Source: Actinocatenispora thailandica (GTDB lineage: Bacteria > Actinomycetota > Actinomycetes > Mycobacteriales > Micromonosporaceae). Taken from it: a DNA stretch of 64,000 nt. This document shows, piece after piece, positions 3,782 through 53,575 of the stretch. The notes under the pieces are model-generated. The model saw only the letters and a program-made list of their open reading frames with translations. It was not told the origin of the DNA and searched no databases. A program made the translations under genes and the position numbers. The stretch covers positions 7,314,198-7,378,197 of the forward strand of contig NZ_AP023355.1 of NCBI RefSeq assembly GCF_016865425.1. Direction: 5' to 3'. Within the stretch, counting starts at the first letter, position 1. Every line of letters begins with the position of its first letter.

Positions 3782-4353
3782 CCGAGACACGAGCGACGAT
3801 CGCGGCGGCGGCCCGGCGGATCCTGGAGGACGAGGGCGTCGCCGCGGTGACCATGCGGCGCATCGCGACCGAGTGCGGGGTCAGCGCGATGACGCCCTAC
3901 TGGCACTTCCCGAACCGGGAGACGCTGCTGGAACAGGTCTGCCAGGAGGCGTTCGACGAGGTGGCGGCCGGCTGGCGGCAGCGCACCACGAAACAGGATC
4001 CGCTGGCCGACCTGCACGCGACGACCGACCTGCTGCTCGACTTCGCGCTGCACCGGCCACGCCTCTACGACTACCTGTTCACCGCGCCGCGCCCCGCCGC
4101 CCGCCGGTACCCGGACGACTTCGCCGCCGGCGACTCGCCCACCCTCAACGTCCTGATCGAGGCGCTGCGCAACGGAATGCGCCGCGGCGTCCTGCGCGAC
4201 GACGATCCGGTCGGCGTCGCGCTGACCCTCGCCGCCCAGCTGCACGGGCTGATCGCGCTGCACCACGGAGGTCGGATCGGCCTGCCGGACGACGAATTCC
4301 GCGCGCTGTGCCACCGCAACCTGGAGAGGATCCTCGATGGCATCACCGGATGA
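3778..4353 (+). CDS. TetR/AcrR family transcriptional regulator
   Basis: A 191-residue regulator with a typical N-terminal TetR helix-turn-helix (about residues 3-50: RATIAAAARRILEDEGVAAV, then RRIATECGVSAMTPYWHF). The C-terminal part is a helical ligand pocket that resembles the TetR_C domain with Trp/Phe-rich helices (DYLFTAPRP; LAAQLHGLIALHHGG). I take GTG 3778 rather than GTG 3745 because it follows TACGGT by 6 nt and the extra residues do not belong to the family. The end overlaps the start of the acyltransferase gene by 17 nt, so the two are co-translated. The palindrome over the start suggests it represses its own unit. The ligand is unknown. Confidence 0.85.
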   Translation: MTETRATIAAAARRILEDEGVAAVTMRRIATECGVSAMTPYWHFPNRETLLEQVCQEAFDEVAAGWRQRTTKQDPLADLHATTDLLLDFALHRPRLYDYLFTAPRPAARRYPDDFAAGDSPTLNVLIEALRNGMRRGVLRDDDPVGVALTLAAQLHGLIALHHGGRIGLPDDEFRALCHRNLERILDGITG

Positions 4354-5890
4354 GCGGTCCATCGGGCGAAGCGCCGTACTCGCGCTGGTCGCCGCCGCAT
4401 CGTCGGGCGCCCTGGGCTACCTCGGTACCGGGTTGCACCCGGTCGCCGCGCTGACCTGGCTGGTGCCGCTGCCGGTGCTGCTCGCCGCGCCCCGGCTGCG
4501 CTGGCCGTGGGCGCTCGGTGCCACCGCGGCCGGTTGGATCGCCGCCCAGTCCACCCTGTGGTCCTACTTCGCCCACCAGCTCCGGATGCCGCCCGGCATC
4601 CTGGTGGCGGTACTGGCGTTCTACCCGCTGCTCGCGGTCGCCGCGGTCGGGCTGTTCCGGGTACTGCTGCGCCGGGGCCGGCCGGTGGCTGCGGCGCTGG
4701 CGGTTCCCGCGGTGTGGGCGGCCGGCGAGTACCTGTTGTCGATCGCGCAACCGCACGGCGCCTGGCTGAGTCTCGCCTACACCCAGGCCGGGCTGCGCCC
4801 CGTCGTCCAGGTCGCGTCGCTCACCGGCGCCTGGGGGGTCACGTTCCTGGTCACCGGCGTACCGGCGGTCATCGCCGCGCTCGCGGCGCCGGCCGTGCCG
4901 CGGTTGCGCCTCGCCGTCGCGGCGACCGTACTGCTTCTGCTGACCGCCGGTTACACGACCTACCGGCTGGCCGCCGCGCCGCCCGCGAACCGGGTCCGGG
5001 TGGCGGTACTGGGCGGGCCGGTCGACGGTGAGCCGACGCCCGACTCGGCCGCCGGCCGCGCGCTGCTTTCCCGCTACACCAGGCAGATCGCCGCGGCCGC
5101 CGCGGCCGGTGCGCGGGTCGCGGTACTGCCGGAGAAGGTCTTCGACACCACACCCCGCACCTGGCCGCTGGTCGCCGGCCCGCTGGCCCGGCTGGCTCGA
5201 CGGCGGCACGTCGACATCGTGGTCGGTGCCGTCGCCCGGCGCGGCGGTACGGCCACCAACGTCGCCGTCGCGTTCCCCGCCGACGGCGCGGCCCCGGTCA
5301 GCTACTCCAAGCGGCACCTGATCCCCGGGCTGGAGACCGACGAGGTGCAACCCGGCCACGGCCCGCTGCGGCGGGTACCGGGCACCCGGTACGGGCTGAT
5401 CGTCTGCAAGGATCTCGACTTCCCGGATCTGGTGCGGGACAACCGGAATCACGGCGCCTCGGTGCTGCTCGCGCCGGCCTGGGACCTGGGTGGTGACGGC
5501 TGGCTGCACTCCCGGATGGCGGTGCTGCGCGGGGTGGAGAGCGGGCTGTGGATCGCCCGCGCCGGCCGCTACGGCAGGCTCACCGTCAGCGACCCCACCG
5601 GCCGTGTCGTCGCGGAGGCGGATGCCACCGCACGGCCGGACGCCGTCCTCGTCGCCGCGGTCGCCACCGGGGCGACGCCCACCCCGTACGCCCGGGTTGG
5701 CGACTGGTTCGCCTGGCTGTGCGCTGCTGCCGCCGTCGCGCTGCTCGCCGTCGCCCTCCGCGGTCGGCGCAACGCCGGCCCGGCACGGCGCGCCGGGCGC
5801 GAGCCGTCCGGTGCCCGGCTCACCGGCTCTGCTGGGCCCGGAACACCAGCAGCGCCAGTTGCACGCGATTGTCCAGGCCCGTCTTGGTGA
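4337..5890 (+). CDS. lnt: Apolipoprotein N-acyltransferase
   Basis: A 517-residue membrane enzyme that would transfer a third acyl chain to the N-terminal Cys of lipoproteins. The first about 205 residues contain several membrane helices. Residues about 215-455 form a periplasmic nitrilase/CN-hydrolase domain with the catalytic triad visible: Glu in VLPEKVF, Lys in YSKRHLIPG and Cys in IVCKDLDFPD. A last membrane helix (WFAWLCAAAAVALLAVAL) follows. ATG 4337 is preceded by GGAGAGG and overlaps the TetR gene. The C-terminal tail (about 40 residues, RRNAGPARR onward) is low complexity and overlaps the convergent response-regulator gene by 71 bp, so the natural end of the fold is earlier. Having lnt under a dedicated TetR gene is unusual. 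Confidence 0.87.
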   Translation: MASPDERSIGRSAVLALVAAASSGALGYLGTGLHPVAALTWLVPLPVLLAAPRLRWPWALGATAAGWIAAQSTLWSYFAHQLRMPPGILVAVLAFYPLLAVAAVGLFRVLLRRGRPVAAALAVPAVWAAGEYLLSIAQPHGAWLSLAYTQAGLRPVVQVASLTGAWGVTFLVTGVPAVIAALAAPAVPRLRLAVAATVLLLLTAGYTTYRLAAAPPANRVRVAVLGGPVDGEPTPDSAAGRALLSRYTRQIAAAAAAGARVAVLPEKVFDTTPRTWPLVAGPLARLARRRHVDIVVGAVARRGGTATNVAVAFPADGAAPVSYSKRHLIPGLETDEVQPGHGPLRRVPGTRYGLIVCKDLDFPDLVRDNRNHGASVLLAPAWDLGGDGWLHSRMAVLRGVESGLWIARAGRYGRLTVSDPTGRVVAEADATARPDAVLVAAVATGATPTPYARVGDWFAWLCAAAAVALLAVALRGRRNAGPARRAGREPSGARLTGSAGPGTPAAPVARDCPGPSW

Positions 5891-6482
5891 GTGCGCGCGA
5901 GATGTGCGTCTTGACGGTGCCCTCGCTCATGAACAGGGCCTTGGCGATCGTCGCGTTGGCGGCCCCTTCGGCCACCGCTTCGGCCACCGCACGTTCCCGT
6001 TCGGTGAGTACCGCGAGGGTGCGCGCGGCCCGGGCGTTGCCGTCGTCGCCGCGCGACCGCGCCTGGCGGGCCACCAGCTGCCGGGTGATGGTCGCGGAGA
6101 ACGCGGATTCGCCGGCGGCGGCGAGGTGGATGGCGTGGCAGAGTTCCTGTGGCGCCACGTCCTTCAGCAGGTAGCCGCTGGCGCCCGCCTGCAGCGCGTC
6201 GAGCACGTGGGTGTCCAGGTGGAACGTGGTGAGCATCAGGACCGCGGCGGATGGCACCGCGTGGTGGATCCGGCGGGTCGCCTCGACGCCGTTCATCTCG
6301 GGCATCTGCAGGTCCATCAGTACGACGTCGGGCCGGTGCCGGATGGCGGCGGCGACGGCGTCGGCACCGCTCGGTGCCTCGGCGACGATGGTGATCGTGG
6401 GGTCGGCCGACAGGACCATCGACAGCCCGGCGCGGACCATCGCGTCGTCGTCGACGATGAGGATCGAAACGGTGGTGTTCAT
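5820..6482 (-). CDS. LuxR/NarL-type response regulator
   Basis: A 220-residue two-component response regulator. The receiver (residues about 6-122) has the acidic pair in ILIVDDDAMVRAG, the phosphoacceptor Asp in PDVVLMDLQMPEMNG, and the conserved Thr/Lys in MLTTFHLD and GYLLKDVAP. The C-terminal LuxR HTH (about 150-212) reads LTERERAVAEAVAEGAANATIAKALFMSEGTVKTHISRAL. Its ATG (6480-6482) overlaps the TGA of the kinase gene by 4 nt (ATGA), so the pair is translationally coupled. The gene converges on and overlaps lnt. Target genes are unknown; the membrane proteins at 7767-8776 are the nearest candidates. Confidence 0.92.
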   Translation of the reverse strand: MNTTVSILIVDDDAMVRAGLSMVLSADPTITIVAEAPSGADAVAAAIRHRPDVVLMDLQMPEMNGVEATRRIHHAVPSAAVLMLTTFHLDTHVLDALQAGASGYLLKDVAPQELCHAIHLAAAGESAFSATITRQLVARQARSRGDDGNARAARTLAVLTERERAVAEAVAEGAANATIAKALFMSEGTVKTHISRALTKTGLDNRVQLALLVFRAQQSR

Positions 6483-7636
6483 CGGTGAGGGACTCTGCCA
6501 CGCATCCGGAACTCGCCGGAACCGTCCCCGTGCTCGATGATCTCGTGCTGCACCGTGCCGCCGATGGCGGTGGCACGTTCGGCGAGGCCGCGCAGCCCGG
6601 CGCCGCTGCCGGGCAGCGCCGGGGCGCCCTCGTCGACCGGGTTCGTGACGGTCACCAGGATGTCCCGGCCGTCCCGGCGCACGCCGACGGTCACCAGCGC
6701 GCCGGGGGCGTGTTTGCGCGCGTTGGTCAGCCCCTCCTGGACGATGCGGTAGACCTCTTCCGCGGCCGGGCCCGACTCCTGCCCGGTGTCCTGGTCGAGG
6801 TGCGCGACGACGAGCTGTCCCGCCTGCCGGGCCTCGTCGACGAGGCTCTGGACGGTCCGCTCCTGGTCGGTTTCCTGCGGTACCACCAGGGTGCCGTCGC
6901 GCAGCATGCCGATCACCGAGCGCAGCTCGTCCAGCGCCTTGATCGCGGTCGTGCGGATGGTGGTGGCGGCGGGCCCCACGTCCTTCGCGCTCGCGCCGGC
7001 GACTTCGAGCCCGCCGGCGTACAGCGCGATCAGGGACATGTAGTGCGCGACCGAGTCGTGCATGTCCCGGGCGATCCGGGCACGTTCGGCCTGCTGGATC
7101 TGTTCGGCCCGCAGCGCGCGCTCCCGCTCGATGCGCGCCGCCCGGTCCCGGTAGACGGCCACCAGATCCTGCTGCTTCTGCTGCAGCGCCCCCCAGCCCA
7201 CGACCGCCAGCGCGATCGCCGCGTTGACCACGATGGTCAGGCTGAGTACGGAGTTGGCCGGGTAGAGAAGCCAGAAGCCGAGCGCGCCGGCCAGGTCGGC
7301 GAACGCGACCAGGAAAGCGAGCTCGATGCGCCGGGTACGTGCCACGGCGAACAGTGCCACGTAGTTGGCGACGCCGGCGGTCGCGGCGAAGCCGGCGACG
7401 ACCGCGAGCGCCAGTCCGACGCCGACCGGGGCGCGCCGCCGGAGCAGCAGGGTGATGCTGGCGGCAGCACCCACCGTGACGTCCAGGACGCGCCACCCGC
7501 CGCCGGGCCGCTGTTCGAGGACCAGGAACAGCATCGCGAGGCCACCGGCGAACGAGGCGAGCACCAGCAGCGCCGACCTCCCGCGTGATTCCCATCGCTG
7601 CCGGCTGCCGCGCGAGTCGGTCGCAGAGAGCTGCAC
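6479..7636 (-). CDS. Sensor histidine kinase (NarL-partner type, HisKA_3)
   Basis: A 385-residue membrane kinase. About five hydrophobic helices occupy residues 22-165, followed by a basic coiled segment (RAARIERERALRAEQIQQ) and the HisKA_3 dimerisation box ARIARDMHDSVAHYMSLIAL with the phosphorylated His. The ATPase part shows EEVYRIVQEGLTNARKHA (N box) and GSGAGLRGLAERA (G box). The start is GTG 7636, exactly 6 nt after a TAGGCT hexamer, so the transcript is likely leaderless. It pairs with the overlapping response regulator. No extracytoplasmic sensor domain is present, so the signal is probably membrane-related, as in LiaS/DesK-like kinases. Confidence 0.9.
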   Translation of the reverse strand: MQLSATDSRGSRQRWESRGRSALLVLASFAGGLAMLFLVLEQRPGGGWRVLDVTVGAAASITLLLRRRAPVGVGLALAVVAGFAATAGVANYVALFAVARTRRIELAFLVAFADLAGALGFWLLYPANSVLSLTIVVNAAIALAVVGWGALQQKQQDLVAVYRDRAARIERERALRAEQIQQAERARIARDMHDSVAHYMSLIALYAGGLEVAGASAKDVGPAATTIRTTAIKALDELRSVIGMLRDGTLVVPQETDQERTVQSLVDEARQAGQLVVAHLDQDTGQESGPAAEEVYRIVQEGLTNARKHAPGALVTVGVRRDGRDILVTVTNPVDEGAPALPGSGAGLRGLAERATAIGGTVQHEIIEHGDGSGEFRMRGRVPHR

Positions 7637-32510: not shown

Positions 32511-32999
32511 TCAGCGAGGCCGGCCGAACCCGAAGACCAGGGCGGACCAGCCGGTGTCGGCGACGCCCTCGTCGAGCGCGTTGCGCAGGGCGCGTTCCTC
32601 GTAGCCGAAGTGCGATTCCATGATCGCCATCAGGCCGTCCAGTTCCCGGCCGACCGCCTCCAGCGCGGTACCGGAGGCGCCACGCGCGGCCTCGGCCAGT
32701 TCGGCGGTGCGGGACAGGATCGACGCGATGAGCGCGTGATCCTCGACCAGCTTCGTCACCGTGCCGGCCAGGTCCGGCCGGTCGACCAGCAGCTGCCGGA
32801 ACAGTCCGGCATCCTCGCCCTGATGGTGGGCGGTGAGGGCGGCGCAGAAGGCCAGGCAGTGCGTGGCCAGCAGCTCGTTGGGTACCCGCCCGGTCCCCAG
32901 GTCCTGCTTGAGCCGGGTGAGCTGGTGGCGTAGTTCGTGATGGGCCTGCGCGAGTTGCAGGCTGAGCGCGACGGCGCGGTCGCGGTCCGGGGAGGCCAC
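32511..32999 (-). CDS. Hemerythrin (HHE) domain protein
   Basis: A 162-residue four-helix-bundle protein. Candidate di-iron ligands are seen in order: HHELRHQL, HCLAFCAALTAHHQGEDAGLF (HxxxE type), KLVEDHALIASIL and ESHFGYEERALRNAL. Hemerythrin-like proteins in actinobacteria bind O2 or NO or act in oxidative-stress responses. The start is GTG 32999 with AAGGAAGGGA upstream; longer frames run into low-complexity sequence. It stands alone between DUF2752 and the kdp operon, and no partner is apparent. Confidence 0.87.
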   Translation of the reverse strand: MASPDRDRAVALSLQLAQAHHELRHQLTRLKQDLGTGRVPNELLATHCLAFCAALTAHHQGEDAGLFRQLLVDRPDLAGTVTKLVEDHALIASILSRTAELAEAARGASGTALEAVGRELDGLMAIMESHFGYEERALRNALDEGVADTGWSALVFGFGRPR

Positions 33000-43530: not shown

Positions 43531-44894
43531 TGACGACACTGGACCAGCTTCGGGAACAGGTACGTGGGCCGGTGGTGACCGAGCAGGACGAGGGGTACGA
43601 GCAGGCCCGCCGGGTTTACAACGGCATGATCGACCGGCACCCGAAGGTCGTGGTGCGCTGCGCGGACGACACGGACGTGCTGGCGACCGTCGGGTACGCC
43701 CGGGACAACGACCTCGCCCTCGCCGTCCGCGGCGGCGCGCACAGCGTGCCCGGCTTCGGCACGAACGACGGGGGCGTGGTGTGCGACCTGTCGGCCATGT
43801 CGGCCGTACTGGTCGATCCGGCGGCCCGGACCGCCTGGGCGCAGGGCGGCAACACCTGGGGCAGCTTCAACCACGCCACCTACGGCTACGGGCTCGCCAC
43901 CACCGGCGGGATCGTCGCCAGTACCGGCATCGGCGGGTTGACCCTCGGTGGTGGTATCGGCTACCTGGCCCGCGCGCACGGCCTGACCATCGACAACCTG
44001 CTCGCGGCGCGGGTGGTCACCGCCGACGGGCGGGTCGTGACCGCCAGCGCGGACAGCGAGCCGGACCTGTTCTGGGCGCTGCGCGGTGGCGGCGGCAACT
44101 TCGGCGTGGTCACCGCCTTCCGGTACCGGATGCATCCGGTCCGCGACATCATGGCCGGCATCTTCTTCTTCCCGGTGGACCGGGCCGCCGACGTGCTCGC
44201 GAGCTACGACGCGTACATCGCCGACGCACCGGCGGAGCTGGGCGCGTTCCCGGCGTTCCAGATCGCACCGCCGCTGCCGTTCATCCCGCCGCAGGAGCAC
44301 GGCAAACCGTTCTCCATCGTGGTGGCCTGCTGGTCCGGGCCGATGGAGGCGGGCGAGAAGGTGTTCGCGCCGCTGCGGGACGCGGCCCCGCTCGTCGCCG
44401 AGATGGTCGCCCCGATGCCCTACCCGGCGCTCAACGCGATGTTCGACGAGCTGCTGCCGGCCGGACTGCAGCACTACTGGAAGACGGTGTTCTCCCCGGC
44501 GATGACCCCGGAGGTGATCGAGGTGCACGCCGAGCACGGGCCGCGGGTCCCGGCGTTGCAGTCGACCATGCACGCCTATCCGATCAACGGTGCCTGCCAC
44601 GACGTCGCGCCCGACGCGACGGCGTTCGCCCACCGGGACGCCAAGTACGCCACGGTGATCGCCGGCATGTGGCCGGACCCGGCGGACAACGACGCGAACA
44701 TCGCCTGGGTGCGCGACTACTACGCGGCGCTGCGACCGCTCTCGCAGTCCGGCGGGTACGTCAACTTCATGGCCGGGGACGACCAGGACAAGCTGCGCGA
44801 CGCGTACGGCGTCAACTACGACCGGCTGGTCGAGGTGAAGCGGCGGTACGACCCGGGGAACCTGTTCCGCGACAACCAGAACATCGTGCCGTAG
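43530..44894 (+). CDS. FAD-binding oxidoreductase, berberine-bridge type
   Basis: A 454-residue flavoprotein with PCMH FAD domain (VVVRCADDTDVLATVGYARDN; VRGGAHSVPG with the covalent-FAD His; [26 protein letters not shown]) and C-terminal BBE domain (NFMAGDDQDKLRDAYGVNYDRLVEVKRRYDPGNLFRDNQNI). The Cys for a second flavin link, seen in the paralogue at 14003-15313, is absent here, so flavin is probably held by one bond. It is translationally coupled to the sulfite-oxidase-like gene. Sugar or secondary-metabolite oxidation is typical of the family. Confidence 0.9.
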   Translation: MTTLDQLREQVRGPVVTEQDEGYEQARRVYNGMIDRHPKVVVRCADDTDVLATVGYARDNDLALAVRGGAHSVPGFGTNDGGVVCDLSAMSAVLVDPAARTAWAQGGNTWGSFNHATYGYGLATTGGIVASTGIGGLTLGGGIGYLARAHGLTIDNLLAARVVTADGRVVTASADSEPDLFWALRGGGGNFGVVTAFRYRMHPVRDIMAGIFFFPVDRAADVLASYDAYIADAPAELGAFPAFQIAPPLPFIPPQEHGKPFSIVVACWSGPMEAGEKVFAPLRDAAPLVAEMVAPMPYPALNAMFDELLPAGLQHYWKTVFSPAMTPEVIEVHAEHGPRVPALQSTMHAYPINGACHDVAPDATAFAHRDAKYATVIAGMWPDPADNDANIAWVRDYYAALRPLSQSGGYVNFMAGDDQDKLRDAYGVNYDRLVEVKRRYDPGNLFRDNQNIVP

Positions 44895-44910
44895 CGCCCG
44901 GTGCCCGGTG

Positions 44911-45030
44911 CCCGGCGGCGCGGTGCTGGCGGCGCCCGGCGGCGCGGTGCTGGCGGCGCCCGGCGGCGCGGTGCTGGCGGCGCCCGGCGGCGCGGTGCCG
45001 GTGGCGCCCCGCGGCGCGGTGCCGGTCGTC
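44911..45030. repeat. Five tandem 24-bp repeats
   Basis: Units starting CCCGGCGGCGCGGTG follow each other at 44911, 44935, 44959, 44983 and 45007, the last two slightly diverged. They lie between the convergent FAD oxidase and GAF-ANTAR genes, and no gene is supported in 44895-45114. Confidence 0.8.
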
Positions 45031-45114
45031 CACGGTGACCGCGGCGCGCGGCGGTCACCCGGTACCGGTCGTCCACGACGGGCGGGAGCGCCGCGGTCAC
45101 CCGGAACCGGCGCG

Positions 45115-45864
45115 CTACCGGCGCTGGTGGGCGAGTATCGCCCCGAGGTCGGCGGTGCCCGCCGCGACCAGGTGCGCGAGGGTGGCGAGTCGCTGCTGGT
45201 GGCTTCGCGCGTAGCCGCGCAGCTGGTCGAACGCTTCGTCCATCGACACGTTGCCGTGCTCGGCGAGGACGCCCTTGGCCTGCTCGATGATGATGCGGCT
45301 GGTCAGCGCCGTTTCGAGTTGCGCGGCGACCTGCCGGCCCTGGTCGATGGTGCGTTGTTGCAGGATCCCGACGGTGGCGACGTCGGCCAGGGCCTGCCCC
45401 AGCCACGCGGCGTCGACGGCCCGCGGGGCGGTGTTGAGCAGCAGCACCACCCCGATGGTGCGGTCCCGCAGCCGCATCGGCAGGGTGTGCGCGGCGTGGA
45501 ACCCGTAGCCCACCGCCGCGGTGCGGAACCGGGGCCAGCGGGCGCGTTCGGTGGCCAGGTCGAGGCAGGACACCGGCTCGCCGCTGCGGTCGCAGTCGAG
45601 GTGCGGCCCGTCGCCGGTGGTCTCGACGAACCGGGCCAGCAGGTCGGCGCGGTGCCCGGCGGTGGCGGCGAGGCGCAGGTCGCCGTGCGGGCCGCGGAGC
45701 AGGACGGCGGCCGTGTCGGCGGCGAGCAGGTCGGTGCAGCGCTGGCTCAGCATGGTCACGTGCGTGGTGATGTCGAAGCCGGCGACGAGGGTGTCGGCGA
45801 GCGCGACGAACGCCTGGGAGCTGCGCTGCTCCCAGGTGGGGCGGTCACGACCCGGGTCTGTCAC
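45115..45864 (-). CDS. GAF and ANTAR domain RNA-binding regulator (third of three)
   Basis: A 249-residue regulator. The GAF domain (about residues 20-165) contains QRCTDLLAADTAAVLLRG and HTLPMRLRDRTIGVVLLLNTA. The C-terminal ANTAR domain (about 175-235) reads QLETALTSRIIIEQAKGVLAEHGNVSMDEAFDQLRGYARSHQQRLATLAHLV. ANTAR proteins bind paired RNA hairpins and prevent transcription termination; GAF senses a small molecule or light. Its start lies 20 nt inside the preceding GAF-ANTAR gene, so they are co-translated. The targets are not visible here. Confidence 0.9.
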   Translation of the reverse strand: MTDPGRDRPTWEQRSSQAFVALADTLVAGFDITTHVTMLSQRCTDLLAADTAAVLLRGPHGDLRLAATAGHRADLLARFVETTGDGPHLDCDRSGEPVSCLDLATERARWPRFRTAAVGYGFHAAHTLPMRLRDRTIGVVLLLNTAPRAVDAAWLGQALADVATVGILQQRTIDQGRQVAAQLETALTSRIIIEQAKGVLAEHGNVSMDEAFDQLRGYARSHQQRLATLAHLVAAGTADLGAILAHQRR

Positions 45865-46639
45865 GACGCACGCCTTCCTGGCCCGGCTCGTCGGCCCCGG
45901 CGGCGTGCGGCCGACCGCCCAGCACCTCGTCGACGTTCAGCGTGCGGGTGGTCAGGTCACGGGCCACGTCGGACATCCGCCGGCCGGACGCGCGCGCGTA
46001 CCCGCGGAGCACCAGGTACGCGGCGTGCATCTCCAGGTCGCCGCTCTCCGCGAGGACGCCCTTGGCCTGTTCGATCACGGTGCGCCGGTGCAGGGTGGCC
46101 TGCAACTGCTCGTAGATGATCTCTTCCCGGCTGATCGCCCGTTGCTGCAGGATCCCGATCGTGGCGAGGTCGGCCAGCCCCTGACCGAGGGCCTGGCGAT
46201 CGCCGGTCAGCTCGCCGTTCGTGGACGACAGCAGGGTCAGCGCGCCGATCGTGTCGTCCCGCAGCCGCATCGGGATCGCGTACGCGGCGCGGAACCCGGC
46301 CCGCCCGGCGAGGTCGGTGAACTCCGGCCACCGGTCGGCGTCGGCGGCGAGCTCCGGGCTCGTCACGACGGTACCGACGCGTACGCAGGCCGCGCTCGGT
46401 CCCTGCCGGGCCTGGGCGGCGAACAATTCGACCAGTTCGGGCCTTTCGGAGGAACCGGCCGCGGGCCGCCGGCCGCCGCGCCCGTCCGCCAGGATCACGC
46501 TGGCCGCGTCGACCGCGAGCAGGTCGACCGCTCGTTCGGTGAGCTGGGCGAGGAAGTCCAGCACGTCGAAGTCCGCGACCAGGGCGTCCGCCAGCGACAC
46601 GAACGTCGTCGCCACCTGCTGGGGTTGGGTGTCAGTCAT
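45845..46639 (-). CDS. GAF and ANTAR domain RNA-binding regulator (second of three)
   Basis: A 264-residue regulator. The GAF part has LTERAVDLLAVDAASVILADG and YAIPMRLRDDTIGALTLLSS. The ANTAR part is QLQATLHRRTVIEQAKGVLAESGDLEMHAAYLVLRGYARASGRRMSDVARDL. It is clearly a paralogue of the gene downstream, with the same GILQQR junction. ATG 46639 has AAGGAGGG upstream. It lies 16 nt after the first GAF-ANTAR gene and overlaps the third by 20 nt. The C-terminal 25 residues are hydrophilic and probably disordered. Confidence 0.9.
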   Translation of the reverse strand: MTDTQPQQVATTFVSLADALVADFDVLDFLAQLTERAVDLLAVDAASVILADGRGGRRPAAGSSERPELVELFAAQARQGPSAACVRVGTVVTSPELAADADRWPEFTDLAGRAGFRAAYAIPMRLRDDTIGALTLLSSTNGELTGDRQALGQGLADLATIGILQQRAISREEIIYEQLQATLHRRTVIEQAKGVLAESGDLEMHAAYLVLRGYARASGRRMSDVARDLTTRTLNVDEVLGGRPHAAGADEPGQEGVRRDRPGS

Positions 46640-46655
46640 GGCAGACGGCCCTCCT

Positions 46656-47378
46656 TCACCTGGTCTCCGATTCCCGCCGAAAGCGCAGAGTGCGGGCAAC
46701 GACCTGCCGCGCCACCTCCGCCATCGACAGACCATTACTGAAGGCGTACCCACGAAGCCGCATGAACGCCACCTCCGTCGTGACCCCCAACTGCATCTGC
46801 ACCATTCCTACCGCTTGATGTACCTCGATGTGTGGATCGGCCAGCCAGCTGACGTCGGCGGTCTGGTGCCCGTCGATCTCCTCGGCGATCGCCTCGGTGG
46901 CCAGGTCGGCCAGGATCAGAGCGTCGGTCATTTCGGTGTTGGTCAGCCCGCCGACCGCATCGCGGTACAGATCCAGCGATCCCAACCGGACGACCCCGAT
47001 CTGCAGGGGGAAGGAGAACACGGCCGCGGCGCCGAGCGCGACGGCCTGCGGTGCGAACACCGGCCACCGGGACCGCTCGGCGACCAGATCGGGGACCAGC
47101 ACCGGCCCACCGGACTCGAACGCGTCCAGGCACGGGCCCTCGCCCACGGTCAGCTGCAGGTCTTCCAGCGCGGCGCTGGTGGAGTTCGTCGCGTAGACCA
47201 GGCCGCGGTTGGCGCCACGGTCACCGTCATCCCGGTCGAACCCGGACAACACGGTCGCGCCGGCGCCGGACACCGACACCTCGACCACACAGCGGGCACA
47301 CACCAGTGCGACCGCGGATCCACTGTCGGTCGCGCTGTCTGCGGTCAGTCGAGTCTGCAGCCACTCCCGCCTGTCCAC
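46656..47378 (-). CDS. GAF and ANTAR domain RNA-binding regulator (first of three)
   Basis: A 240-residue regulator, more divergent than the next two. The GAF domain reads LVYATNSTSAALEDLQLTVGEGPCLDAFESGGPVLVPDL and VFSFPLQIGVVRLGSLDLYRD, a subtype common in actinobacteria. The ANTAR part is DPHIEVHQAVGMVQMQLGVTTEVAFMRLRGYAFSNGLSMAEVARQVV. The start is GTG 47378 with GGAGG five nt upstream; the longer frame into the intergenic region is rejected. A TAAAAT -10 at 47416-47411 gives a short leader. It heads the run of three genes. Confidence 0.9.
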   Translation of the reverse strand: MDRREWLQTRLTADSATDSGSAVALVCARCVVEVSVSGAGATVLSGFDRDDGDRGANRGLVYATNSTSAALEDLQLTVGEGPCLDAFESGGPVLVPDLVAERSRWPVFAPQAVALGAAAVFSFPLQIGVVRLGSLDLYRDAVGGLTNTEMTDALILADLATEAIAEEIDGHQTADVSWLADPHIEVHQAVGMVQMQLGVTTEVAFMRLRGYAFSNGLSMAEVARQVVARTLRFRRESETR

Positions 47379-47803
47379 ATTGGCCTCCGCCCCTTCTGCC
47401 GCTCCACCGCATTTTACTGTGGACGGACCGGTCGGGGTGGGGATGCCGGCCGGCAGGCGCGCCGTTCGCGGTCGTCCGTGTCCGGTCGGTCCAGATCCCG
47501 GGCGACCGCCGCATCGTGGCCCGAAGGTCCGGTTCCCGCCACCGGTGCGTATCGCCGGTCCGGGCCTGCCGGTACCCGTCGGCCGCGGGTGCCCCGTGCC
47601 GGCTGCACAGCGGACCGGTACCTGACCGTACGGGGGTTGCCTCCGGCGGGCTGGCGGAGCAGAGTACGACGCACCCCGCCGTGGCCGAGACCCCGCTGCC
47701 GGTCGGTGACGGTGAGGGATGCATCCGGAACACGCTTGGGGGAGCGCGGGCATCTGGGGGCGCCGTCCGGCCGGCCGTGGCCCGGCCGCGGCGGGACCCG
47801 TCG
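47379..47803. other. Intergenic region with the GAF-ANTAR promoter
   Basis: This 425-bp stretch contains a TAAAAT -10 hexamer on the minus strand (47416-47411), which should drive the GAF-ANTAR genes, without a convincing -35. The rest is GC-rich with only Arg-rich shadow frames, and no gene is supported. Confidence 0.5.
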
Positions 47804-48238
47804 TCATCCGGTGACGGGTTCTCCGGCCGTGGCCCACGAGTCCGTCGCCGCCACCCGGAGGATGTCGCCCAGACCGACGGGCTGCCGGTGATCGGTGGCC
47901 AGGGACAGCGCCCGATGCGCGGTCAGTGACTCGGTGTCCGCCGGCACGACGAACAGCGTCAGGCTCCGGCCGTACTCGTCGGCGGCGCGCAGCAGGTGAG
48001 CCGGCTCCCCACCCCAGTCGATCGAGATCGTCCGGCCGCTCGCCGTGACCTGGTCGGGATGGTCAGCCCAGTCGGCACGGTGTACGACCAGTTCGCGGGC
48101 GTGCTGGCCGACCCGGCCCAGCAGCGGCAGCAGCCTCGGCACCTCCGCGCTCAGGTTCCGGGACGCCGGCCACCAGGCACCGGCGATACGCCGCGCCGCC
48201 GGCCCCGGCGTGAAGGTGATCCGTACCAGGGCCGTCAT
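47804..48238 (-). CDS. DUF5994 family protein
   Basis: A 144-residue protein matching the actinobacterial DUF5994 pattern: RRIAGAWWPASRNLSAEVPRLLPLLGRV, then RTISIDWGGEPAHLLRAADEYGRSLTLFVVPADT and a C-terminal helix. It is probably cytosolic, without signal peptide or membrane helices. The function of the family is not known. ATG 48238. It lies between the GAF-ANTAR genes and the stress-response module and shows no clear operon partner. Confidence 0.78.
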   Translation of the reverse strand: MTALVRITFTPGPAARRIAGAWWPASRNLSAEVPRLLPLLGRVGQHARELVVHRADWADHPDQVTASGRTISIDWGGEPAHLLRAADEYGRSLTLFVVPADTESLTAHRALSLATDHRQPVGLGDILRVAATDSWATAGEPVTG

Positions 48239-48955
48239 CCGAGGACCCGGCCGGGGTGGCTCGACTCACCGGCAGTCGGCCGGCCCCGGTGCGCCGAGGC
48301 GGCGGGCACCGGGTCGGCCGCTGCCGCTCGGTACATGACATGCGCCTCAGCACATCGGTGGGTCGTCGCGGGCTGGTACCGTCCCGCCGCCGCACGCCGG
48401 CCGCGACGGCGCGCGCTGCGGCCGGCTCGTTGCGGGCCTCCGGTCCGCGCCGACCGGCGGGCGGCGGGACGAGCGAGCTGGCCCTCGGGTGGCTGCCGTG
48501 CCGTCGTGCCGCGCACGGCGGCACGCAGCCAACTGAGGAAGGTGCGCCCTGCTGCCGCTGCGGCCGGGGACGCCTGATCGGGATCCTGCAACGTCGGTGC
48601 CAATGCCCGTCTCCGCGTTCATCTCAACGCCGAGGTCTGGGGCGCGATCGAGGTTGCCGCCGTCAAGGCTACGCCGATCAGGACGGTTTGACGGTGCCAA
48701 CGCGGCGGCTTCGGTAGGCCCCGGTGCTGCCATATGACGACAAATCGCAGCGAGACCTTCGCGCGTGTTCCGCCGACGTCTGCGCCGCAGCGTCGCCCGC
48801 CGGCCGGGATCCGGGGCTGGTGGCCCGATGGCCCGGCGATGGTCCCGGCGTCGCTGGATCGTTCGGCACTGCTGGCGCCCGCGACACCGGCACACGATGG
48901 CGGCAGGACAGCGGCCGCCGGCAGCGGCAGGGCGAACAGGAAAGAAGCCAGCGTC
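48239..48955. other. Long intergenic region upstream of a universal stress gene
   Basis: No gene is convincing in these 717 bp. A minus-strand frame (48235-48603) overlaps the DUF5994 start by 4 nt but is Ala/Arg low complexity. GGGGCTGGTGGCCCG at 48813-48827 is a weak DosR-box-like sequence about 130 bp before the stress-protein ATG. Confidence 0.5.
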
Positions 48956-49855
48956 ATGTACGACTCCACTGTGGACAACGACACCGTCGTGGTCGGCGTC
49001 GACGGGACGCCGAACAGCCGCGCCGCGCTCGCCTGGGCGGCACGATCGGCCGCGGGCGATCACCGGAACCTGCTGATCTGCCACGTGCGGCAGGACCCGT
49101 CCGGCGACGGCGAGGACGCCGCGGAGCTGCTCACCACGGCTCTGGAGGCGGCCCGCCGAACGGTGGACGCCGATCGCATCCAGGTCTGCCTGAGCCACGG
49201 CGACCCGTCGCTCGCGTTGGCGCGGCTGGCCGCCCCGGCGCAGCTGCTGGTGTTGGGCGCCGAACCCGACGCCGACCGGCCGGGGGCCAGCCGGGAACTG
49301 GTGGCGCTGCGTACCGCGATGGCCGCGCGCTGCCCGCTGGTGGTGGTGCGGGCCGACGGCGGGATGCCGGGGCCGTTGCGGGGTCAGGTCGTCGCGGCGG
49401 TGGACGGGTCGCCCGCCGCCCGGTCGGCGCTGGAGTTCGCGTTCGGGTACGCCGATGCGTACGACCTGCCGCTGGCCGCGGCGCACGTGACGCCGGAGCC
49501 GGCGGGCGGGTACTGGTTCGACGAGCGGTTGTTGGAGACCCATTTCGCCACCGAGCCGGCGGCGCTGGGGTTCCTGGAGCGGGAGACGGAGCCGTGGCGG
49601 CGGCGTTTTCCCCGCGTGGCGGTCAAGCTGGTGGTCCTGGGTGGTTCCCGGCTGGCCGCGTTGACGATGGCCAGCCAGGGTGCGAGCCTGCTGGCGATCG
49701 GCCGGGCCGAGCGGGGTTCGCCGCGGGCGGCGCTGGGCCCGATCGCGTACGGCCTGCTGCGCGACGCGGGCTGCCCGGTGGCGGTGCTGAGTCCCGCCGA
49801 GGCCGCCCAGACCGTACCGGCGGCGACCGAGGTCGGCGCGGCGCGCGCCGGCTGA
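48956..49855 (+). CDS. Tandem universal stress protein (two UspA domains)
   Basis: A 299-residue protein with two UspA folds. Domain 1 (about 8-132) starts DTVVVGVDGTPNSRAALAWAA and ends CPLVVVRADG. Domain 2 (about 146-285) starts GQVVAAVDGSPAARSALEFAF and contains the ATP-site-like AIGRAERGSPRAALGPIAYGLLRDAGCPVAVL. Tandem USPs are typical members of the dormancy (DosR) regulon in mycobacteria. ATG 48956 has only AGGAAAG upstream. The gene converges on the DosR-like regulator with a 5-bp gap, so the module is compact. Confidence 0.9.
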   Translation: MYDSTVDNDTVVVGVDGTPNSRAALAWAARSAAGDHRNLLICHVRQDPSGDGEDAAELLTTALEAARRTVDADRIQVCLSHGDPSLALARLAAPAQLLVLGAEPDADRPGASRELVALRTAMAARCPLVVVRADGGMPGPLRGQVVAAVDGSPAARSALEFAFGYADAYDLPLAAAHVTPEPAGGYWFDERLLETHFATEPAALGFLERETEPWRRRFPRVAVKLVVLGGSRLAALTMASQGASLLAIGRAERGSPRAALGPIAYGLLRDAGCPVAVLSPAEAAQTVPAATEVGAARAG

Positions 49856-49860
49856 GCCGG

Positions 49861-50505
49861 TCAGTTCCGGGCGCGGCCCAGCAGCCGGGTGGCGAGCACG
49901 GCCGCCTCGGTGCGCCGGTGCAGGCCCAGCTTGGCCAGGATGCTCGACACGTAGTTCTTGACGGTCTTCTCCGACAGGTTCATCGTCTGGGCGATGTCGC
50001 GGTTGGTGCCGCCCTCGGCCATGTGGGTGAGGATGCGACGCTCCTGGTCGGTGAGGTGGCGTAGCTCGTCGGGCTCGTTCGCGGTGCCGCGGCGGATGCG
50101 TTCCAGCACCCGTTCGGTGATGGCCGGATCCAGCAGCGAGTGGCCGGCCGCGACCTGCCGCACCGCCGCCACCAGGTCGGTGCCGCGGATCTGCTTGAGC
50201 ACGTACCCGGCGGCGCCGGCCATGATCGCGGCGAACAGCGCCTCGTCGTCCTCGTACGAGGTCAGGATCAGCACCTGGATGGACGGGTCCACCGAGCGGA
50301 CCTCGCGGCAGACGTCGATGCCCGAGCCGTCCGGCAGCCGGGCGTCCAGGATCGCGACGTCCGGGCGCAGGGCGGGGATCCGGGCGATCGCCTGGGCTGC
50401 CGAACCGGACTCTCCGACGACGTCGATCTCCCCGTCGTGTTCGAGCAGGCCGCGCAGACCGGCACGCACCACCTCATGGTCGTCGAGCAGGAACACCGTG
50501 ATCAT
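49861..50505 (-). CDS. DosR/DevR-like response regulator
   Basis: A 214-residue NarL-type response regulator. The receiver has VFLLDDHEVVRAGLRGLL, DVAILDARLPDGSGI (phospho-Asp), LILTSYEDDEAL and GYVLKQIRG. The DNA-binding part reads LTDQERRILTHMAEGGTNRDIAQTMNLSEKTVKNYVSSILAKLGLHRRTEAAVLATRL. The EKTVKNYVS..LAKLG..RRTEAAV recognition helix is close to that of mycobacterial DosR, which binds GGGACT-type boxes. Candidate boxes occur upstream of the DoxX and stress genes here. The probable partner kinase is at 51848-53575. Confidence 0.9.
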   Translation of the reverse strand: MITVFLLDDHEVVRAGLRGLLEHDGEIDVVGESGSAAQAIARIPALRPDVAILDARLPDGSGIDVCREVRSVDPSIQVLILTSYEDDEALFAAIMAGAAGYVLKQIRGTDLVAAVRQVAAGHSLLDPAITERVLERIRRGTANEPDELRHLTDQERRILTHMAEGGTNRDIAQTMNLSEKTVKNYVSSILAKLGLHRRTEAAVLATRLLGRARN

Positions 50506-50735
50506 TCCCCCGTTCTACTCCTGCCGGGCTGCCCGTGCGGCCGGTCCAACGGCCCGGATTCCCGGGGCCGAACGGCCCGGACCCGGGCCGCACCGGACGA
50601 TCGGGCCGGCCGCGGCCATCGCGGGCGCACCCACGCGGGTGCCGAAGTGCGGCCGAGACCGGGCCGGACGGCACTGCCGGGACGCGGTGGCGGCGACAAG
50701 CATGGGGCCACAGGCGGTTCGAGGAGATGAGAACG

Positions 50736-53575
<2,840 letters not shown>

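Follow-up and report, generated by a model that had tools for sequence, protein, structure and literature searches.

A degenerate-ANTAR gene and a B-type GAF-ANTAR gene form a conserved two-gene module in Actinocatenispora thailandica and its relatives

Introduction

A dual-hairpin mechanism has been set out for ANTAR regulators (PMC3369931), and the structure of EutV in complex with RNA, as presented in PMC8934654, defines the residues that hold the hexaloop. EutV is described there as working as a homodimer, with one hexaloop engaged per ANTAR dimer. RNA binding is also reported for an actinobacterial protein, PAL, in PMC7496416, where autoinhibition through the RNA face is treated as established for a third protein, NasR. 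By the same account, described ANTAR regulators are receiver, pseudo-receiver or one-component proteins, and their ANTAR domains are thought to be unspecialised among these architectures. The actinobacterial ANTAR RNAs reported in PMC8164766 act on translation, and most of them are located at a ribosome-binding site or a start codon; the search that found them required a tuned model.

Among the open-access publications that we searched, we found none that describes a GAF-ANTAR pair or a pseudo-ANTAR class. One paper mentions a GAF/ANTAR gene near alkB (PMC11854999), and named database records of the gene pair reported here give domain names only. Here we analyse three adjacent GAF-ANTAR genes, called A, B and C, in a 64,000-nucleotide stretch of Actinocatenispora thailandica DNA (the window), and we compare them with their relatives in the genus and in the class.

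Results

Genes A, B and C are real genes, arranged head to tail on the minus strand. Gene A (46656..47378) encodes a GAF domain and a degenerate ANTAR domain in 240 amino acids, from a GTG start at 47378 to a stop at 46656. Gene B (45845..46639; 264 amino acids; ATG start at 46639) encodes a GAF-ANTAR protein that is of the RNA-competent type as judged by its residues, and gene C (45115..45864; 249 amino acids; GTG start at 45864) encodes a second protein of that kind. The stop of A and the start of B are separated by 16 nt, C starts within the last 20 nt of B, and a purine-rich, Shine-Dalgarno-like stretch precedes each of the three start codons. The original prediction had described this head-to-tail trio, its gap and its overlap correctly, leaving out the strand. 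The order of A and B and the short gap between them are consistent with a single transcript. Pairwise protein identity is 27% for A and B, 33% for A and C, and 43% for B and C. The genome (7.43 Mb in one contig) has eight ANTAR matches, three of which fall within 2.3 kb at this locus. The A-B-C order is present in all three other genomes of the genus examined, in which identity to the window genes is 71–74% for A, 66–68% for B and 61–63% for C. Given the local share of the genome's ANTAR matches and the recurrence of the order throughout these genomes, the clustering of A, B and C is beyond chance.

A TAAAAT sequence resembling a -10 box lies 32 nt ahead of the start of A, at 47411..47416 on the minus strand, and a TANNNT box (TAGGCT) is found at the aligned place in the three other genus genomes. 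A TAAAAT promoter had been proposed here; the box is present, and a promoter scan recognised no -35 box that would complete a sigma-70-type site upstream of A. Apart from the TANNNT box, the leader of A is unconserved across the genus (three other genomes), which leaves the idea of an ANTAR-type autoregulatory leader before A unsupported.

All three proteins score above the curated cut-off of the Pfam ANTAR family (PF03861; 27.3 bits), with 32.8 bits for A, 51.0 for B and 58.6 for C, and all three have a GAF domain above cut-off (Pfam GAF_2 or GAF). In A, the GAF domain spans residues 32–164 (46887..47285, minus; Pfam GAF_2), and its model resembles the GAF domains of DosS and DosT. The ANTAR domain of A spans residues 186–227 (46698..46823, minus); the Pfam match covers profile positions 13–54 and so lacks positions 1–12. 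In B, the GAF domain (residues 28–163; 46151..46558, minus) is supported by Pfam GAF_2 and by a fold match, and the ANTAR domain (Pfam) occupies residues 177–229 (45953..46111, minus). The corresponding Pfam domains of C are GAF at residues 41–162 (45379..45744, minus) and ANTAR at residues 181–231 (45172..45324, minus). Predicted structures of A and B as single chains, built from three-sequence alignments, have moderate pLDDT values (71.7 and 69.7, respectively), and in a Foldseek comparison the N-terminal parts of both fall among GAF domains. We also looked in the models for the coiled-coil dimer helix that precedes an ANTAR domain. In the model of B, a 27-residue helix (174–200) runs into the ANTAR domain (pLDDT moderate, about 70); in that of A, the linker is broken at 172–179, where pLDDT is below 50, and an 18-residue helix (180–197) follows. 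Across 53 aligned A-B pairs, cysteine is found at position 27 of A in 45, at position 83 of A in 35 and at position 82 of B in 51, and these are candidate sensor residues; the window's own B has serine at position 82. None of A, B and C has a family of its own in NCBIfam, where the sole listed match for A is far below cut-off. A protein scan of genome contigs gave one distant match, in Nocardioides.

To compare RNA-contact residues, we took the contacts from the EutV-RNA structure (PMC8934654), mapped EutV numbering onto the PDB chain by alignment, and examined 43 unique A-type and 46 unique B-type ANTAR domains. The two types differ at the contact positions. K149 is found in none of the A-type domains and in 45 of the 46 B-type domains, the remaining one having arginine; R142 is kept in 25/43 versus 46/46, an aromatic residue at 164 in 11/43 versus 45/46, and a basic residue at 177 in 9/43 versus 38/46. 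R168 is retained by both (43/43 A-type, 45/46 B-type). Position 172 is phenylalanine or tyrosine in every A-type domain and arginine in 45/46 B-type domains; most A-type domains have gained an acid or a glycine at 175, and they share a conserved motif of their own, QATGM. Neither type matches EutV completely: K143, K147 and E160 are absent from both, and B-type domains also lack M172 and usually N173 and R175. The window's genes follow their types. A has histidine at 142, valine at 149, phenylalanine at 164, threonine at 160, glycine at 175 and serine at 177, and only R168 is identical to EutV among the 11 contact positions. B and C keep the core set R142, K149, Y/F164 (Y164 in B), R168 and R177 and have lost the other EutV contacts. 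By this alignment, the ANTAR domain of A has lost most of the RNA-contact residues known from EutV, and RNA binding by B is predicted from the core set that it shares with PAL. The original prediction was right that the first gene has a different GAF subtype, and the divergence reaches its ANTAR domain as well. Its claim that all three proteins are RNA-binding antiterminators does not hold up, as most of the known RNA-contact residues are missing from the A-type ANTAR domain in all the relatives that we examined. K149 has been replaced by threonine in two lone B-type genes (L108 and L109, in genomes G199 and G179). Here an RNA-contact residue was lost separately, so loss at this position is not confined to the A-type.

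A first search in 41 relatives showed that most A-type matches are followed by another ANTAR gene. We then counted A-type and B-type genes by score cut-offs in a class sample of 197 genomes, which gave 71 A-type genes (57 genomes, at least 21 families) and 84 B-type genes (64 genomes). The A1 cut-off of 157 bits was picked after viewing the list and marks no sharp gap, since B-type genes begin at 154.5; for A2, the counted entries end at 169.4 and the next stands at 151.9 (partly incomplete genes). A B-type gene lies directly downstream of the A-type gene on the same strand in 62 of the 71 cases, with 6–195 nt between the matches. The window's A and B, an A-type then a B-type gene on the same strand 16 nt apart, are one instance of this arrangement. 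Among other ANTAR genes, same-strand tandems within 1300 nt numbered 6/136; this control set consisted of the 150 best ANTAR matches in the 41 relatives after removal of 14 module members. The difference is very large (Fisher p about 1e-35), although the two genome samples differ and the comparison is rough.

To account for the exceptions, we re-examined the DNA around the 18 B-type genes lacking an A match and around 7 exceptional A-type genes. In one genome (G113) the partner is present but broken, and in another (G109) the A-type gene lies at a contig end. The B-type genes of three further genomes (G048, G073 and G149) have a weaker but true A-type gene upstream, which lies below the cut-off and was found only by reading the surrounding DNA. 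After this follow-up, 63 of 70 A-type genes are paired, the contig-end case being excluded, and one of the seven unpaired genes (in G170) is itself broken. For the 84 B-type genes the dependence is looser: 65 follow an A-type gene, 2 form the second partner of a triple, 3 fall at the edge of a contig and 14 are solitary. These data establish A-B as a widespread, conserved two-gene module in which a gene for a degenerate-ANTAR partner precedes a B-type gene. One of the seven unpaired A-type genes is in the window's own genome: an orphan (G000:C1:1719827-1720537; L008, L097) that is 70% identical to A and has no adjoining B-type gene. The arrangement occurs on plasmids too. On pCspYC1 of Curtobacterium sp. 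YC1, I8920_RS16040 scores as A-type and I8920_RS16035 as B-type, 14 nt apart. Plasmid pDK3 of Rhodococcus sp. DK180 (L146) has, at 3911–6739, an A-type gene and then a GAF gene with only a weak B-type match; another small ANTAR gene, PSR87_RS38475, follows downstream.

Among the orthologues of four genus genomes, dN/dS is 0.10–0.22 for the ANTAR part of A and 0.14–0.36 for that of B. The values for A indicate that its ANTAR domain is not decaying and is under purifying selection. The trees of A and B agree over 53 pairs (Mantel r 0.67; maximum of 2000 permutations 0.224). In genomes with two pairs, true partners correlate better than swapped ones in 6/6 comparisons, four clearly and two by almost nothing. 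This agreement shows A and B to be co-inherited as a unit. It is no proof of contact between the two proteins, because co-divergence is expected of any fixed neighbours.

We scanned for dual hexaloops with A at loop position 1, G at position 4, stems of at least 4 and a linker of 2–25. The module region yielded no such element on its sense strand. The 59 A-type leaders scanned also had none, compared with an average of 0.68 in shuffled sequences, and the whole window had 1 in total (5.8 in shuffled sequences). Nor did we find a terminator-like element in the module region. Rfam at gathering scores returned only a tRNA within the window. For a covariance model built from random synthetic dual hairpins, the best E value across four genomes of the genus was 1.93, each genome having had 150 of its roughly 2800 candidates scored. 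The model's matches in the genus are at chance level, and, as this is a weak search, targets may lie elsewhere. The best covariance match in the window (32771–32810, minus, 21.7 bits) lies inside a hemerythrin-domain gene and was set aside as a probable chance match. Two others close to the module, at 45107–45143 and 45817–45852, are weak (11 bits) and belong to 99 such matches.

A survey of neighbouring genes at 40 module loci of 7–17 kb plus the window found no family that accompanies the pair frequently enough to point to a target. Leaving aside the ANTAR cluster, the commonest family occurs at 9 of the 41 loci, in gene calls that missed some module genes; we take it as DUF5994-like because the window's DUF5994 gene (47804–48238) belongs to it. 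Within 11.7–17 kb around the module in the three other genus genomes, only DUF5994-like genes match, in two of the three, at 30–34% identity. Adjoining the ANTAR genes in the window, the stretch at 48734–53575 holds genes for a universal stress protein, a LuxR-type response regulator and a two-GAF histidine kinase, a layout that we label DosS/DosR-like. Downstream of C, GC-rich tandem repeats at 44906–45022 (24-nt unit, 4.9 copies) and 45017–45110 (42-nt unit, 2.2 copies) separate it from a convergent gene ending at 44894. In some genomes (G091, G049 and G050; L076, L078 and L093, respectively), the A-B pair has in its vicinity genes of 450–700 codons that encode a GAF domain from the same family.

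Discussion

We favour a reading in which an A-type sensor modulates an RNA-binding B through a protein complex, and we give it a probability of roughly one half. In this mechanism B (and C) would be the RNA-binding output, acting in trans on hexaloop hairpins. A would sense a signal of its own without itself binding hexaloop RNA, and would raise or lower RNA binding by B via a hetero-complex. The effect would be as likely to fall on translation initiation as on termination. Two features of the class-wide sample bear on this reading. The constant pairing of A with B makes a protein complex plausible, and the lopsided dependence between the genes, with A rarely found without B and B alone in 14/84 cases, marks A as the accessory partner. 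C is a second effector retained in the genus, and two outputs may share one A. Several signals had originally been proposed to feed one antitermination circuit. The many-sensor, one-output part of that proposal fits the A-B operon; antitermination was an assumption, given that the actinobacterial ANTAR RNAs reported in PMC8164766 are found mostly at translation starts.

A stronger version of the favoured reading, that the A-type is a specialised pseudo-ANTAR class forming an obligate heterodimer with B, strikes us as doubtful. If true, the ANTAR dimer would be asymmetric, combining two unlike GAF sensors with a single arm that reads RNA. This would fit the uneven engagement of one hexaloop by an ANTAR dimer that has been published, and the module would amount to a two-input AND/NOT gate on RNA.

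Just as tentative is the alternative that A, B and C are three independent one-component GAF-ANTAR homodimers, each with its own RNA, that came to be adjacent through duplication and share a transcript for convenience, with A reading another type of RNA through its altered surface. All three proteins are intact and above the Pfam ANTAR cut-off, lone A-type genes exist, and the A-type's own motif (QATGM, with R168 and F/Y172 in 43/43), together with purifying selection, is what would be expected of an altered but working RNA surface. Yet random duplication would not yield an A-then-B order in 62/71 cases over at least 21 families. A phosphate-binding surface at that place is also made less likely by the loss of K149 in all A-type domains and by the acidic residue or glycine that most of them have gained at position 175.

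We consider it improbable that A is specifically an RNA-free antagonist, a decoy or anti-ANTAR that keeps B inactive until the GAF domain receives its signal, as the NIT domain does in NasR, but in trans. The autoinhibition of NasR through its RNA face, as given in PMC7496416, would be a precedent, and the retained ANTAR fold of A, the broken linker in its model and the occurrence of B-type genes alone, with A-type genes seldom so, would all suit such a role; an activating role of A fits the same facts. Least probable is the reading in which three RNA-binding antiterminators pass several signals into one antitermination circuit through heterodimers, for although the operon order, the GAF domain in each protein and the conserved A-B-C order agree with it, the RNA-contact residues of A are mostly lost, the module region yielded neither a terminator-like nor a dual-hexaloop element, and the actinobacterial ANTAR RNAs of PMC8164766 mostly overlap translation starts.

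The preferred reading, modulation of B by A, can be set against the known systems. B and C are like EutV (Enterococcus faecalis; PDB 6WSH/6WW6; PMC8934654) in their three-helix ANTAR domain with R142, K149, an aromatic residue at 164, R168 and R177. EutV is a REC-ANTAR protein with a receiver domain, whereas A, B and C have a GAF domain instead; relative to EutV, B and C are without K143, K147, E160, M172 and R175, and A is without most contacts. With PAL of Nakamurella multipartita (PAS-ANTAR-LOV; PDB 6HMJ), B has in common the core of R142, K149, F/Y164 and basic residues at 168 and 177, but PAL is a single light-sensing protein, and here there are two GAF proteins in an operon. The same genome encodes, outside the module, a response regulator of the Rv1626/PdtaR type (L001) whose ANTAR domain is attached to a receiver domain and has a more EutV-like contact set than A, B or C. 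The Curtobacterium pair on pCspYC1 is an example of the module itself, differing from the window's locus in having two genes only and an A protein of 33% identity. An A-B pair is small and probably soluble, and it is directly testable for RNA binding under the control of a partner.

The likeness to NasR of Klebsiella oxytoca (NIT-ANTAR; PDB 4AKK; PMC7496416) lies in its one-component logic, in which a sensor controls an ANTAR domain that is always folded. In NasR, however, sensor and ANTAR domain share one chain, whereas here a second, degenerate-ANTAR protein is nearly always encoded alongside. Because its fold is kept while most contacts are lost, and because it is still under selection and linked to a partner with the core set intact, the A-type seems to be an exception to the proposal, made in that study (PMC7496416), that ANTAR domains are unspecialised.
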